The notes beneath the pieces were generated by a model. It saw only the letters and a program-made list of their open reading frames with translations, searched no databases and had not been told where the DNA came from. Shown one piece after another: positions 5,944-58,986 of a stretch of 64,000 nucleotides of DNA (position 1 is the first letter of the stretch; each line of letters starts with the position of its first letter). A program made the translations under genes and the position numbers. Source of the stretch: Oscillatoriales cyanobacterium (GTDB taxonomy: Bacteria > Cyanobacteriota > Cyanobacteriia > CACIAM-69d); contig RDXB01000040.1 of assembly GCA_004292515.1 (NCBI GenBank), positions 62,001 through 126,000 of the forward strand. The letters are read 5' to 3'.

Positions 5944-6933
5944 ATGGGTTTTGCAGTGTTTGGATCATTGATTTTGGGAGTCGTCATTGGTGGCGCGATC
6001 GCCTGGTACTTGTTGCAGCAGCGTTTGGCCGATCTCGATCGCCAGCACAAGCAGCAGCTCGATCGCCTGCGCCAAGGCCTAGAGCAGGATTTTGAAATCC
6101 AGAAGCAGACCGCTCGAAAAAATTTCGATCGGGAACTGCAAGCCCTGCAAGCACAACTGGATCAACTCAAGGCGCGATCGACCGCCCCCAGTCCGGCCCC
6201 GAGTGCGGCGGCTCCGGCCCCAACGCCCGCACCCACGCCCGCACCTGCACCCACAACAACGGCGGCCAAGCTGCCTGATCCTTGGGGAGGTGTCACGGCG
6301 GCTCCGGTGGCAGCAGCGCCGATCCCGACTCCGGCTCCTGAACCGATCGCCACGCCGGAACCCGGGCCGATCGCCGCGCCTGAACCTGCACCTGCACCAA
6401 TCCCCGAACCCGAACCGATCGCCCCGCCGGAACCCGAACCGATCGCCACGCCGGAACCTGCACCTGCACCTGCACCAATCCCCGAACCCGAACCGATCGC
6501 CACGCCGGAACCCGAACCTGAACCTGCACCTGCACCAACTCCCGAACCCGAACCGATCGCGATTGTTGCGCCGATTGCTGAACCTGTCGCCAGCATCAGT
6601 GCGGCTCCCAGCCCCTTAGCACAGGTAGCGAGCTTGGCAGCGCGGGTGCGATCGCTTGGTCAACGGGCCGAAGCGCGATCGCCCATTGCCGAGTTGTGCA
6701 CCTTCGCCAGCCACCCCGATCCGCAATTGCGAGCAAGCGCGATCGCCGCCCTCGCCCCCATCAGCAGCCCAGAAGTGTTGGAACTGCTGCAAAAAGCCCT
6801 CCACGATGCAGCGCCAACGGTCGTGCAAGCCGCTGCCAAAGCACTCGATCGCTACAAGGCACACCCCCCGATCGCCCCGAGCTTGCCGGAACCCACCTTA
6901 CCCGCCAACGGCAGCCCCCAAAAGTCCTCGTGA
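5944..6933 (+). CDS. Membrane-anchored protein with coiled coil, Pro/Ala/Glu linker and HEAT-like repeats
   Basis: A 329-residue protein with four parts: one N-terminal membrane helix ([20 protein letters not shown]), a coiled coil of about 60 residues rich in Q, L, D and R, a long low-complexity linker (about residues 80-215) built from [15 protein letters not shown]-type units, and a C-terminal stretch of HEAT-like helices ([15 protein letters not shown] and [13 protein letters not shown]). The linker could span periplasm or wall, or hold the HEAT scaffold away from the membrane. Function unknown. The longest frame starts at 5848 inside the start of the ATPase gene, but ATG 5944 directly precedes the membrane helix and leaves a normal divergent spacer. 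Confidence 0.7.
6181..6580 (+). repeat. Coding tandem repeats (Pro-Glu/Pro-Ala linker)
   Basis: Imperfect repeats of 12 to 30 bases, such as CCCGAACCGATCGCC and CCTGCACCTGCACC, encode the [12 protein letters not shown] linker of the gene at 5944-6933. They keep frame throughout. The strong internal similarity makes this a likely site of length variation between strains. Confidence 0.75.
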
Positions 6934-10394: not shown

Positions 10395-10784
10395 ATGATG
10401 GAAAATAAACAAGCTAATTCTTTAAAAAGTGATGTTCGTGGATGGAATGTATGGAGAAACACCATCTACGGAGAGGGAAAACCCATTGAACTGAGCTTTA
10501 CCGACCTGAGCCGTGCCAACTTGTGCGGTGCCGACCTGCACGATGCCAGACTGCGCTATGCCAGACTGGAACAGGCCGACCTGCACGGTGCCGACCTGCG
10601 CGGTGCCGACCTGACCGGTGCTGACCTGAGCCGTGCCGACCTGACCGGTGCCGACCTGATCGGTGCTGACCTTCGCGAGGCTAACCTGACCGATGCTGAC
10701 CTTCGCGAGGCCAAGGTAAACGAGCACACTAAGTGGCCCACCGCAGATTTTGATTTCGCTGCTCTGGGAGTTACCACCGCATGA
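10395..10784 (+). CDS. Pentapeptide repeat protein (tandem copy 1)
   Basis: A 129-residue protein. The N-terminus (MMENKQANSLKSDVRGWNVWRNTIYGEGKPIELS) precedes about 15 A(D/N)LxG-type pentapeptides (GADLRGADLTGADLSRADL), which form a right-handed quadrilateral beta helix. A short tail follows: [21 protein letters not shown]. Small proteins of this kind are common in cyanobacteria and mostly of unknown role. The closest relative in view is the next gene, which shares leader, N-terminal plan and tail (TADFDFAA), so the pair arose by tandem duplication. No signal peptide is visible. ATG 10398 is an equally good start. Confidence 0.85.
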   Translation: MMENKQANSLKSDVRGWNVWRNTIYGEGKPIELSFTDLSRANLCGADLHDARLRYARLEQADLHGADLRGADLTGADLSRADLTGADLIGADLREANLTDADLREAKVNEHTKWPTADFDFAALGVTTA

Positions 10785-10808
10785 TTTGTTAGAGGAACTA
10801 AATTTCCG

Positions 10809-10899
10809 GGCAGTGTCGTAATCCAGTCATGATTTGCAGATGCAAGCCCCAGGCTGTAAGCAAGTTTCTGCCGCAAATCATCACCTCATCGGCACTGCT
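10809..10899 (+). repeat. Hairpin element, copy 2, with duplicated leader
   Basis: The second copy of the hairpin element: GGCAGTG...CACTGC, inner pairing CATGATTTGC/GCAAATCAT. It begins 24 bases after the stop of pentapeptide gene 1 and is followed by a leader about 140 bases long that closely matches the one before gene 1. Confidence 0.8.
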
Positions 10900-11039
10900 A
10901 ATTTGATCTTTTGTTTTATTTTACAACTTGGTTGTAACTAGCTTTTAAGATTTTCAAATATCCTTAAAATCCTCCTAGACCTGTGCTTTAGTTGATCACC
11001 AAACAGGCTTATTCAGCCAATTTCAGTAGGCGACACATC

Positions 11040-11417
11040 ATGGCCATTGACGAACAAGTTGATTTATTAAAACGCGATGTTCTTGGATGGACTAGATGGA
11101 GAAATGTTTACGGAAAGGGAGAATATATTGACCTGCGCAAGGCTGACCTGACCGAGGCCAAACTGAGCAATGCCGATCTGCACAAGGCTGACCTGATCGG
11201 TGCCAAACTGACCGGTGCCAAACTGATCAATGCCAACTTGACTGGTGCCAACCTGAGCGATGCTGACCTGAGCGGTGCCAACCTGATCGATGCCAAACTG
11301 ACTGGTGCCAACCTGACTGGTGCCAACCTGACCGGTGCCAAGGCAAGCAAGAACACTCAGTGGCCCACCGCAGATTTTGATTTCGCTGCTCGGGGAGTGA
11401 CCATCGGATATTATTAA
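11040..11417 (+). CDS. Pentapeptide repeat protein (tandem copy 2)
   Basis: A 125-residue protein starting [32 protein letters not shown], followed by about 14 pentapeptides such as [24 protein letters not shown] and the tail [22 protein letters not shown]. The repeats favour A(K/N)LTG where copy 1 favours ADLRG, so the faces of the helix differ in charge (fewer acidic residues here). The frame is open from 10992, but ATG 11040 occupies the same place in the duplicated leader as the start of copy 1 (GTAGGCGACACATCATG). Function unknown; probably a paralogue pair with separate targets. Confidence 0.85.
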
Positions 11418-35383: not shown

Positions 35384-35530
35384 TAGGGTGTGTCATCAGA
35401 TTCGATTGATTGGGGTTGAAATGATTAATTTTCCTAGCCCAACCGCCCCAGACAAGGGGCTTAAGCCCCTTGCTCCTCACGATCAAGCAACGCAAGAATC
35501 GGGGTTTCAGGGATTTGATAACAGCCCCTA
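35384..35530 (-). mobile_element. Family A element (MITE), nearly complete, 147 bp
   Basis: The ends TAGGGTGTGTCATCA and TGATAACAGCCCCTA are imperfect inverted repeats beginning with TA. The perfect palindrome CAAGGGGCTTAAGCCCCTTG is at 35453-35472. Read on the minus strand, it aligns end to end with the copy at 42816. The right end supplies the TAG stop of the RNase II/R gene (35528-35530). No coding capacity. Confidence 0.88.
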
Positions 35531-42815: not shown

Positions 42816-42988
42816 TAGGGGCTGTGATCAAATCCCTGAAACCATTCCCTGAAACCATTCCCTGAAACCCTGATTCCACCGTTAGCAAATCGTGAGGGGC
42901 AAGGGGCTTGAGCCAATTGTCTAGGGCGGTTGGGCTAGGAAAATTGATCATTTCGACCCTGATTAATCGAATCTGATGACACACCCTA
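42816..42988 (+). mobile_element. Family A element (MITE), complete ends, 173 bp
   Basis: The left end TAGGGGCTGTGATCA and right end TGATGACACACCCTA are imperfect inverted repeats beginning and ending with TA. It aligns with the reverse of 35384-35530. It is longer because CCCTGAAACCATT is tandemly repeated (42833-42867). The central palindrome is degenerate (CAAGGGGCTTGAGCCAATTG). Confidence 0.88.
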
Positions 42989-43695: not shown

Positions 43696-43795
43696 AATGA
43701 CCCAAAACTAATAAAAACCACCTTAAAACAGCAAAACCGATGAAAATTTAGCAGAAAGATTCCATAGACCACACAAGACCACACAAACGCCATCT

Positions 43796-43931
43796 CAGAG
43801 GATGCCTGAAAAGCCCAAGTTGATACTCCGCATGCTCCATCGATCGACGCAAACAAGGGGCTTGAGCATCTTGCTGCCACGACTATTGGTGCTTGGCCCG
43901 GGCCGAAAGATACTTTTCAGACATCCCCTCA
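43796..43931. mobile_element. Family B element (MITE), uninterrupted, 136 bp
   Basis: The ends CAGAGGATGCCTGAAAAG and CTTTTCAGACATCCCCTCA are inverted repeats of about 18 bp. The interior aligns throughout with the two halves of the interrupted copy at 48967-49246 (67 + TA + 67). The palindrome is decayed (CAAGGGGCTTGAGCATCTTG), with TG at the centre where the other copies have TA. Confidence 0.88.
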
Positions 43932-47829: not shown

Positions 47830-48789
47830 CTACAACGGAATATTCGTTGCTGGCTCCGCGTCTTGGAACAACGGCGTGCTCAGGTAACGTTCCCCAAAGC
47901 TAGGTTGAATCGCCACAATCAATTTGCCCGCATTTTCCGGGCGGCGACCCACCTGAATCGCCGCATAAACCGCCGCGCCCGAAGAAATCCCCGATAACAA
48001 GCCCTCTTCCCGGGCCAAACGGCGACCATAGGCGATCGCCTCGTCATCGGTCACGGTGATCACTTCATCAATTAAATCCACCTTCAGCACCTCGGGCACA
48101 AAGCCCGCGCCGATCCCTTGAATTCGGTGGGGCCCCGGTGAACCACCCGACAGCACCGGACTGTTGGCCGGCTCCACCGCAATTACCTGAAACTCCGGCT
48201 TCCGCTGCTTCAGCACTTCCGCCACGCCCGTAATCGTGCCGCCCGTGCCCACGCCGGAAATCAAGAAATCGATCTTGCCGTCCGTGTCGGCCCAAATTTC
48301 CTCAGCGGTGGTGCGACGGTGAATCTCCGGGTTGGCCGGGTTGCGGAACTGCTGCAACATATAGGCATTTGGAACCCGGTTGGTAATGTCTTGGGCCCGC
48401 CGAATGCAACCGCCCATGCCCTCAATCCCTGGAGTCAGCTCCAACTGCGCCCCATAGGCCCGCAGCATCGCCCGCCGCTCGGCACTCATGGTTTCCGGCA
48501 TGGTCAGGATCAGTTGGTAGCCCTTGGCAGCGGCGGCCATCGCCAAGGCAATCCCCGTATTCCCGGAAGTGGGTTCCACCAAGACGGTCTTACCCGGCAC
48601 GATCGTCCCGGCCCGTTCGGCCGCTTCGATCATATTGATGCCGATTCGGTCTTTCACCGAAGCGGAGGGGTTCATGCTTTCCAGCTTGACTAGCACTTCG
48701 GCCACGCAGCCCTCGGCTTGGGGCAGGCGATTGAGGCGAACGAGGGGTGTGCGGCCGATCAGCTCAGTGATGTTATTGGCGACGTTCAT
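47830..48789 (-). CDS. cysK: Cysteine synthase A
   Basis: A 319-residue PLP enzyme that makes cysteine from O-acetylserine and sulphide. [20 protein letters not shown] begins the fold. The PLP lysine is in [26 protein letters not shown] and [18 protein letters not shown] bind substrate and phosphate; SGISSGAAV is near the end. ATG 48789 (MNVANN) fits relatives; ATG 48795 two codons earlier is possible. Upstream are the nested elements and then an Rrf2 regulator on the same strand; in several bacteria an Rrf2 protein (CymR) controls cysK, so the pairing may be functional. Confidence 0.96.
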
Positions 48790-48966
48790 GGGCATCTGGC
48801 GAGAGCAGGTCTGTGGTTTGTAGTCCTAGCTTAGAAAGGCGCTTTCTCAAAACAGCGGCTTCGACATGGTTTGAAATGCTTTGAAACGTCCCATTGCCAA
48901 ACGTTGCATAACGCTGTGGCAACCTGGGCGAGCCGAGGCTGGAAAATGTTTGGGCGGATACCGGTT

Positions 48967-49246
48967 TAGGGGATGTCTGAAAAGCCAGAATTGATACTCT
49001 GGATGCCCCATCGATCGACGGAAACAAGGGGCTTAGGGGGTGTCATCATTTTCCATAACTGAGTCTGAAATCGTCGATTTCCCACGCCTCAATGGTCGTA
49101 ACAGGGGGCTTAAGCCCCTTGCCCCCACGATCCGCTCACGGTGGAATCAGGGTTTCAGGGTAATTGATGACAGGCCCTAAGCCCCTTGCTGCCACGACTA
49201 TTGGTGCTTAGTTCGGGCCGAAAGACACTTTTCAGACATCCTCTTA
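48967..49246 (+). mobile_element. Family B element interrupted by a family A element
   Basis: The outer ends TAGGGGATGTCTGAAAAG (48967) and CTTTTCAGACATCCTCTTA (to 49246) are inverted repeats. The left half ends ..GAAACAAGGGGCT at 49033 and the right half resumes AGCCCCTTGCTGCC at 49180. Joined with one TA they restore the palindrome CAAGGGGCTTAAGCCCCTTG and the 136-bp length of the uninterrupted copy at 43796. The right end forms the TAA stop codon of the Rrf2 gene. Confidence 0.9.
49034..49179 (-). mobile_element. Family A element nested at the centre of a family B element, 146 bp
   Basis: The ends TAGGGGGTGTCATCA and TGATGACAGGCCCTA are inverted repeats starting and ending with TA. The core palindrome CAGGGGGCTTAAGCCCCTTG is at 49102-49121. 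One TA belongs to the target and the other is the duplicate: this is the clearest target-site evidence in the window. Confidence 0.92.
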
Positions 49247-49681
49247 GATGTAGTACATCAAATCCAGTTGCTTGCGGGCATCGCGCCGATCCTTGAGATC
49301 TTGCAAGGTGTAGTGCTGCAAAACATCATTGGCGGCGCGATCGACTTCTACCCAAATTTCATAAATGATGGCGCTTTCTAGATTACGATCGCTGCCGTTG
49401 TTGTCGGCCAAGTTGGCATCGGCCCCTTCTAGACAGCGCAACACATCGAGCAAGGAAATCGACCAAGGGGCCCGCGACAACAAATAGCCGCCCTTAGCAC
49501 CGCGCTGGCTCTTGACCAGGCCGCCGCGTCGCAGGGTGGCGAGTAGCTGTTCGAGGTAGCGATCGGGAATATCTTGGTCGGCGGCAATTTGGCGAATTTG
49601 CAGCGGCTCATCGTCTTGGTAGCGATCGGCCAGGTGTAACAACGCCAGCAGCGCGTATTCGCTTTTGGATGACAGTTCCAC
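49244..49681 (-). CDS. Rrf2 family transcriptional regulator
   Basis: A 145-residue DNA-binding protein. MELSSKSEYALLALLHLADRY and QIAADQDIPDRYLEQLLATLRRGGLVKSQRGAKGGYLLSR are the winged helix of the Rrf2 family. The three-cysteine cluster of IscR is missing, so it is more like CymR, which senses cysteine status through CysK, than an iron-sulphur sensor. The neighbouring cysK supports that reading but does not prove it. The last codons (LDLMYYI) run directly into a TAA supplied by the end of a family B element, so the original C-terminus may have differed. The start has GGGAGGA upstream. Confidence 0.9.
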   Translation of the reverse strand: MELSSKSEYALLALLHLADRYQDDEPLQIRQIAADQDIPDRYLEQLLATLRRGGLVKSQRGAKGGYLLSRAPWSISLLDVLRCLEGADANLADNNGSDRNLESAIIYEIWVEVDRAANDVLQHYTLQDLKDRRDARKQLDLMYYI

Positions 49682-58410: not shown

Positions 58411-58634
58411 GTACCTTTGTCCAAATCTGGCCCTGGCTAGAATGCAAAACGTGATCGCGGTCTTTCTTTCGTTTTATACCGAATCATTTCGTTGTAAATG
58501 TCCCCAACGATCGGTTATTGCAATTGCAGGTCATAGCTGGTCAAATTGGAGACCGCATTGTGGCCTAATTAAGGATGTCTGGGAAGCATCTTTTGGCACG
58601 AATCCAGCCCGAATCGTCGTGGCGGCAAGGGGTT

Positions 58635-58780
58635 TAGGGCGTGTCGTCAATTAGCCTAAAACCCTGATGCCACCGCGCCACGATCTTGGGGAGCAAGCTG
58701 CTCAAGCCCCTTACTACGACCATTGGGGCAAGGAAAATCAACCGTTTCAGCTTGCTCCTAGGAAATGACGACAGCCCCTA
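58635..58780 (+). mobile_element. Nested family A element, 146 bp
   Basis: The ends TAGGGCGTGTCGTCA and TGACGACAGCCCCTA are inverted repeats with TA at each tip. The same length as the nested copy at 49034-49179. The interior AAACCCTGATGCCACCG..ATCTTGGGGAGCAAG..AAGCCCCTTACTACGACCATTGGGGCAAGGAAAATCAACCG is family A. Confidence 0.88.
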
Positions 58781-58828
58781 GGCTCCCTTGCCTACGCCGA
58801 TCGCTGGGGCGTACAAAGTATCAATCTC

Positions 58829-58898
58829 GGCTTTTCAGACTTGGCTTTTCAGACTTGGCTTTTCAGTCTCGGCTTTTCAGACTTGGCTTTTCAGACAT
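58829..58898. repeat. 14-bp tandem repeat, five copies, inside a family B element
   Basis: GGCTTTTCAGACTT and variants repeated at 58829, 58843, 58857, 58871 and 58885. Other family B copies have a single unit, so this is an expansion of part of the terminal repeat. Confidence 0.9.
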
Positions 58899-58986
58899 TC
58901 TCTAAGAACGGAGTTGATGAGCAATCACCCTGTGGGGGCAGAGACGAGCACTGTGATGGCGCTTAACCAGTCGCGATCGCGGGTGA

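Follow-up and report, generated by a model that had tools for sequence, protein, structure and literature searches.

A short mobile element nested at the palindromic centre of another in a cyanobacterium related to Limnothrix

The composite between the Rrf2-like gene and cysK

The DNA analysed here (the window) is a stretch of 64,000 nucleotides, positions 62001-126000 of contig C66, from the 3.98-Mb, 111-contig genome of a cyanobacterium related to Limnothrix. Between an ORF for an Rrf2-like regulator (49244-49681, minus strand) and cysK (47830-48795, minus strand), both named from reading their translations, a family A element sits in the centre of a family B element that spans 48969-49243. 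This was read directly from the sequence and confirms the observation, made in an earlier note on this DNA, that A is nested in B. The parts of the composite are as follows.

48966-48968: TTA, left copy of the B target duplication; it precedes GGGGATGTCT
48969-49033, plus strand: left half of family B, terminal repeat GGGGATGTCTGAAAAG ... CAAGGGGCT; aligns to the B profile
49034-49035: TA, left copy of the family A target, by direct reading
49036-49177, plus strand: family A element of 142 bp with terminal repeats GGGGGTGTCATCA / TGATGACAGGCCC; this repeat is also found on IS5-family elements
49102-49121: palindrome within family A, CAGGGGGCTTAAGCCCCTTG, a further instance of the landing site
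49178-49179: TA, right copy of the family A target, by direct reading
49180-49243, plus strand: right half of family B, AGCCCCTTG ... CTTTTCAGACATCCTC
49244-49246: TTA, right copy of the B target duplication; on the minus strand, the TAA stop of the ORF at 49244-49681

Including both TAs, family A occupies 146 bp (49034-49179; TA-GGGGGTGTCATCA...TGATGACAGGCCC-TA), and deletion of A and one TA from the composite restores CAAGGGGCTTAAGCCCCTTG and a full-length B. The rejoined flanks thus bear out three proposals of the earlier note, namely the nesting itself, a TA target duplication by A and insertion at the centre of a palindrome. The joined flanks cover positions 2-135 of the B profile, nearly its whole length (E=4e-46), and the 275 bp of B in the composite equal 131 + 142 + 2 when the limits of B are set by its terminal repeats and duplicated target. 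Both halves match the intact copy at 43796-43931, with 87% identity over 67 bp for the left half and 83% over the compared stretch for the right, a match on which the earlier note had staked its reading. Because the TTA duplication of B is intact outside A, B was inserted before A. The predicted folding of the composite is much stronger than that of shuffled sequence (z -6.6), as nested inverted repeats would lead one to expect; the composite matched no Rfam family and nothing in a plasmid collection. It is not a product of chance, since each family has dozens of copies in the genome and several further loci carry similar composites whose outer flanks differ.

Two congeners, G001 (Limnothrix sp. 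CACIAM 69d) and G002, have no such composite between their orthologues of Rrf2 and cysK. The exact orthologous empty site was recovered in neither, and exact empty sites were likewise not recovered for five other G001 insertions, since the intergenic DNA of these congeners is too diverged. The right TTA of B supplies the stop codon of the Rrf2-like ORF; in the congeners the stop there is TAG.

Copies of both families and the preferred target of family A

About 1.6 Mb of the same genome was searched with profiles of both families. The window holds these further copies.

43798-43928, plus strand: uninterrupted family B, 131 bp, with TCA at 43795-43797 and 43929-43931
58571-58902, minus strand: second A-in-B composite; A at 58635-58780, TA-flanked, with the terminal repeat pair present
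35384-35530, plus strand: another A-type element, TA-flanked, outside the palindrome
42816-42988, minus strand: another A-type element, TA-flanked, outside the palindrome

The joined flanks of the second composite cover B positions 8-132 (E=4e-32). The uninterrupted B in the window has TTGA at its centre, within a degraded palindrome, so the perfect palindrome of B is drawn from the rest of the family and not from this intact copy. The earlier note had also asked whether B might occur only within composites; 37 near-full-length uninterrupted copies were found in the 1.6 Mb, and with separate copies this plentiful B is known not only from the composite. The genome holds some 40 copies of family A, or more, short and lacking coding capacity, and neither A (142 bp) nor B (131 bp) contains genes, in agreement with the proposal that both are non-autonomous. 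For counts we used A copies defined by terminal repeats only, non-overlapping and with TA at both ends (n=45 in 1.6 Mb), where a TA belonging to the element is indistinguishable from a duplicated TA by sequence alone. The suggestion that both families are of the TA type did not hold, since B duplicates three bases: identical flanking triplets are present at 13 of the 41 B copies that retain both ends, and all 13 are TNA, as is found for IS5-family elements with B-like ends (below).

The palindrome is a repeat in its own right. GGGGCTTAAGCCCC is present 295 times in the window's genome, where its reversed control has no copies, 257 and 110 times in the two congeners, and 30 times in G004, a genome from the family to which the window's belongs. 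Many copies lie within A, B or their decayed relatives, and some stand alone. It was found in 51 of 242 sampled cyanobacterial genomes, with the reversed control almost always at 0, and is thus a wider cyanobacterial repeat. G162, a cyanobacterium of another family, has 97 copies, and several others have up to 53. A text search of the literature with the letters of the palindrome or of the A ends returned nothing relevant.

Family A uses this repeat as a target far more often than its abundance would predict. In the 1.6 Mb, AAGGGGCT-TA-AGCCCCTT is the site interrupted by 17 of the 45 A copies (a palindrome site being called with at most 3 mismatches of 16), and such sites make up 137 of 42,462 TA dinucleotides (0.3%). 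Nearly all A insertions (42 of 45) are in YTAR; palindrome sites are 117 of the 4,631 intergenic YTAR sites (2.5%; binomial P=8e-16 for the A insertions), a background that is approximate because the intergenic mask is a simple ORF-based rule (ORFs of 100 aa or more). When only TTAA sites are considered the palindrome holds 14 of 22 A insertions against 135 of 3,201 sites (P=3e-14). A preference for any palindrome was rejected as the explanation, since the flank symmetry of non-palindromic insertions is near background (2.04 vs 1.76 of 7 pairs). Family B is itself occasionally found in the same palindrome (C31:44017, C36:32387).

These numbers bear on the possibility that A inserts at any YTAR with no target preference and that copies in other MITEs simply survive because they are harmless there. 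All but one of the 45 A copies are not deep within an ORF, which is consistent with selection against gene disruption, and within A and B the best YTAR is in many cases the palindrome. We nevertheless regard survival by itself as an unlikely explanation, because palindrome sites show an enrichment of about 16-fold relative to the rest of the intergenic YTAR sites and because only the centre is used within the hosts. Joined flanks rebuild a junction-spanning host in 15 cases (10 A hosts and 5 B hosts), and all 15 hosts are split at the centre, while none of the roughly 127 YTAR sites away from the centre of A and B copies has been used (Fisher P=1e-7). The palindrome preference would thus be due to target choice by the transposase, and part of it could be survival, insertions into other MITEs being harmless.

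A composite might also have formed once, elsewhere, and then spread as a unit by means of B's outer ends. The B TTA duplication that flanks the composite in the window makes arrival as a unit possible in principle, and A-in-B composites are present at several other loci, with differing outer flanks, and in G001. Such spread seems quite improbable given the inserts themselves, which belong to different A subgroups and differ in orientation; those of the window and C88 are in opposite orientation relative to B. The closest relatives of the A inserts are outside B: the window and C88 inserts are closest to an insert at C62:32273 (97-99%), which is not in B, and the C100 insert is closest to an A-in-A insert (88%). 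Family A also enters A and lone palindromes. With nearest relatives outside B and opposite orientations, the A-in-B nestings look independent as judged from their sequences, and spread as a unit is not needed, though it may account for individual copies.

Transposase-encoding relatives of the two families

DUF4096 is a mark of many IS5-family transposases, and a search with it led to L208 in Psychrobacter piscatorii, an 841-bp element of the form TA-GGGCGTGTCATCAATTAA ... CTAATTGATGACACGCCC-TA. The ends of A, TAGGGNNTGTCATCAAT, are also the ends of elements of about 830-850 bp that encode DUF4096 and DDE_Tnp_1 in Psychrobacter (L208) and in many cyanobacteria; TAGGGCGTGTCATCAATT-type ends surround DUF4096/NF033580-type genes at L208, L253-L264, L266, L268, L269, L271 and L272. 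The proteins tested from such A-ended elements match NCBIfam NF033580 (IS5), Pfam DUF4096 and DDE_Tnp_1, and the cyanobacterial elements are flanked nearly always by YTAR, mostly CTAG. The ends of L272, in G004, are very close to those of A (GGGGGTGTCGTCATTT...TTTTGACGACAGCCCC), and L272 sits at AACAAGGGGCT-TA / TA-AGCCCCTTGCCCC, which is the palindrome centre of an A-like element. For family B, the ends GAGGATGTCTGAAAAG are similar, though not identical, to the GAGG.TGTTTGAAAAG of a second IS5-family group, whose elements of about 911 bp with B-like ends have an identical TNA on both sides (TTA, TCA or TAA; L207, L211, L214-L216, L221). The terminal repeats and TNA duplication of B thus appear to match an IS5-family group.

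The window's own genome yielded no autonomous element with ends of the A or B type, and neither DUF4096 (PF13340) nor an A-type transposase query gave any match there. An autonomous partner is not strictly required for a MITE, and partners are often lost. We infer the trans-acting step, since no autonomous element was found in this genome; with no DUF4096 gene or close relative of the A-type transposase found there, the A copy in the composite may now be immobile.

Several other loci were met in these searches. Two Psychrobacter loci (L079, L090) are a 174-bp MITE with the ends of A, and the P. piscatorii genome also has the 841-bp IS5-family element L208; the MITE and L208 are likely a MITE-partner pair. 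The A-type end TAGGGNNTGTCATCAA has roughly 100-175 matches per strand in the genomes of Lyngbya sp. HA4199-MV5 (G062, with L080) and Kaiparowitsia implicata (G066, with L087), many of which pair up into MITEs of 128-129 bp; amplification of this end type has therefore also taken place in distant cyanobacteria. Six loci (L092, L094, L177, L180, L187, L196) were set aside: each has either a single A-like end or a MITE, and their ORFs are ordinary genes among which no transposase was noticed.

The earlier note had placed A and B among relatives of IS630/Tc1-mariner elements, which would have been moved by an IS630-type transposase. The TA duplication of A fits such an origin, as does the published preference of IS630 for TA within CTAG, given in the title of a reference that PMC2170065 cites. 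However, the terminal repeat of A is found on IS5-family elements instead, and IS5-family genes also carry B-like ends; the TNA duplication of B is not TA; and the IS630-type (DDE_3) genes of the window's genome, L061 and L062, have unrelated ends. A DDE_3 search of this genome and six others for a gene with the predicted TAGGG..TGTCATCA ends found none flanked by the end pair, and in those six genomes, which are related or rich in A, none of the 29 matches lies between paired A-type ends. An IS630 origin is therefore very improbable, and the family assignment is corrected to IS5. ISY100 is an IS630/Tc1-mariner element (PMC2170065); A is like it in TA insertion with duplication and differs from it in its ends and transposase family.

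Proposed course of events and known systems

Hardly credible, finally, is an origin of the junctions in recombination between dispersed palindromes (arm exchange at TTAA, with no transposition): palindrome arms are indeed common to A, B and lone copies, and the tandem arrays of A right halves described below (as at C88:29057-29390) point to recombination among halves, but such exchange would not put a complete TA-flanked A with both terminal repeats at a junction, and A copies with both ends intact are also present at unrelated TA sites. A and B are very probably MITEs of the IS5 family, both non-autonomous, which share a palindromic landing site and nest there through an IS5-type transposase acting in trans.

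The steps by which an IS5-type transposase acting in trans would have made the composite can be set out as follows; we infer the chemistry of insertion and the source of the transposase. B, with ends like those of the TNA-duplicating IS5-family group, would have inserted first, at the 3' terminus of the gene that lies upstream of cysK. An IS5-family DDE transposase supplied in trans would then have bound the ends of A, which are those of TA-duplicating IS5-family elements, and A, cut from its donor or copied, would have been joined to a staggered TA in the TTAA centre of B's palindrome, after which host repair would have duplicated the TA. Since A and B both carry the palindrome in their middle, each insertion would supply a fresh target and nesting would recur. 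We put forward more tentatively, as a possibility that may well prove wrong, that GGGGCTTAAGCCCC is a self-renewing landing pad, recognised by the IS5-type transposase either as sequence or as an extruded hairpin, and that MITEs carrying it were selected because each copy is a harmless next target; recursive nesting by two MITE families with 2- and 3-bp duplications would be the result.

Both presumed parent groups have known counterparts. The IS427 group of the IS5 family has a two-frame transposase, a 2-bp duplication and lengths of 832-865 bp, as in IS1248 and ISPpa6 of Paracoccus (PMC3281130). The full-length relatives of A (L208, L253-L272) are like this group in size (about 830-850 bp), in having DUF4096 and DDE in two frames in the cases read, and in TA on both sides; unlike it, A lacks coding capacity, and these relatives were placed at the level of the family (NF033580). 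IS1031-type IS5-family elements make a 3-bp TNA duplication. Sites of 3 nt are noted for this group (PMC2516522), and the elements of about 911 bp with B-like GAGG.TGTTTGAAAAG ends resemble it in their identical flanking TNA, whereas B is 131 bp long with no gene and no autonomous partner for it was found in this genome.

IS5-family-derived MITEs of 140-252 bp have been described in Methanosarcina, where nested "Russian doll" elements are also mentioned (PMC3852290). A and B are like them in size, in terminal repeats shared with insertion sequences, in their many intergenic copies and in nesting; they are unlike them in that one element enters another at a single exact point, the middle of a palindrome that the elements themselves carry. 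IS1397, IS621, ISPpu9 and the IS5 element ISNm1106 target repetitive extragenic palindromes (PMC1525189), and IS1111 inserts into the QMITE2 palindrome (PMC10969869). A is similar in having a dispersed palindrome as its preferred landing site, but the reported mobile elements are not described as carrying the palindrome, whereas A and B carry it themselves and thus renew the target with each insertion. In REP/RAYT systems (REPINs) a single palindromic unit with a GTAG or CGTC tag is mobilised by a Y1 transposase (RAYT); the TA and TNA duplications of A and B, together with their DDE-type ends, speak for a different system. IS5-family MITEs, palindrome-targeting insertion sequences and nested elements are thus already known (PMC3852290, PMC1525189, PMC10969869, PMC3281130), and recursive self-nesting, in which each element carries its own target, is a modest new variant and not a new kind of system. 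A single palindromic site is common to both MITE families and to at least one element that encodes a transposase, which provides a clear natural record of target choice; and as A and B carry the site themselves, self-targeting in bacterial transposons can here be put to a direct test. Nesting accounts for part of the dense intergenic repeats of Limnothrix-like cyanobacteria, including the composite between Rrf2 and cysK.

Some further arrangements were seen in the course of the survey. At C46:40959-41262 two A elements stand back to back with one TA in common (CCCTA-GGG), that is, an insertion at the edge TA of another copy. Right halves of A form tandem arrays at C88:29057-29390 (near L015), C46:836-1143 (L018) and positions 1907-2042 of L272 in G004, with a unit of about 69 bp (AGCCCCTTG...TGATGACAGNCCCTA) and a single left half, or one left half short. 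Under repeated nesting, left and right halves should be equally numerous, and the arrays depart from that; that recombination removed left halves is a guess. Elsewhere in the window, 10474-11409 and 6283-6594 hold dense short-period repeats with units of 15 and 24 nt, multiples of three, and are likely repetitive protein-coding stretches.
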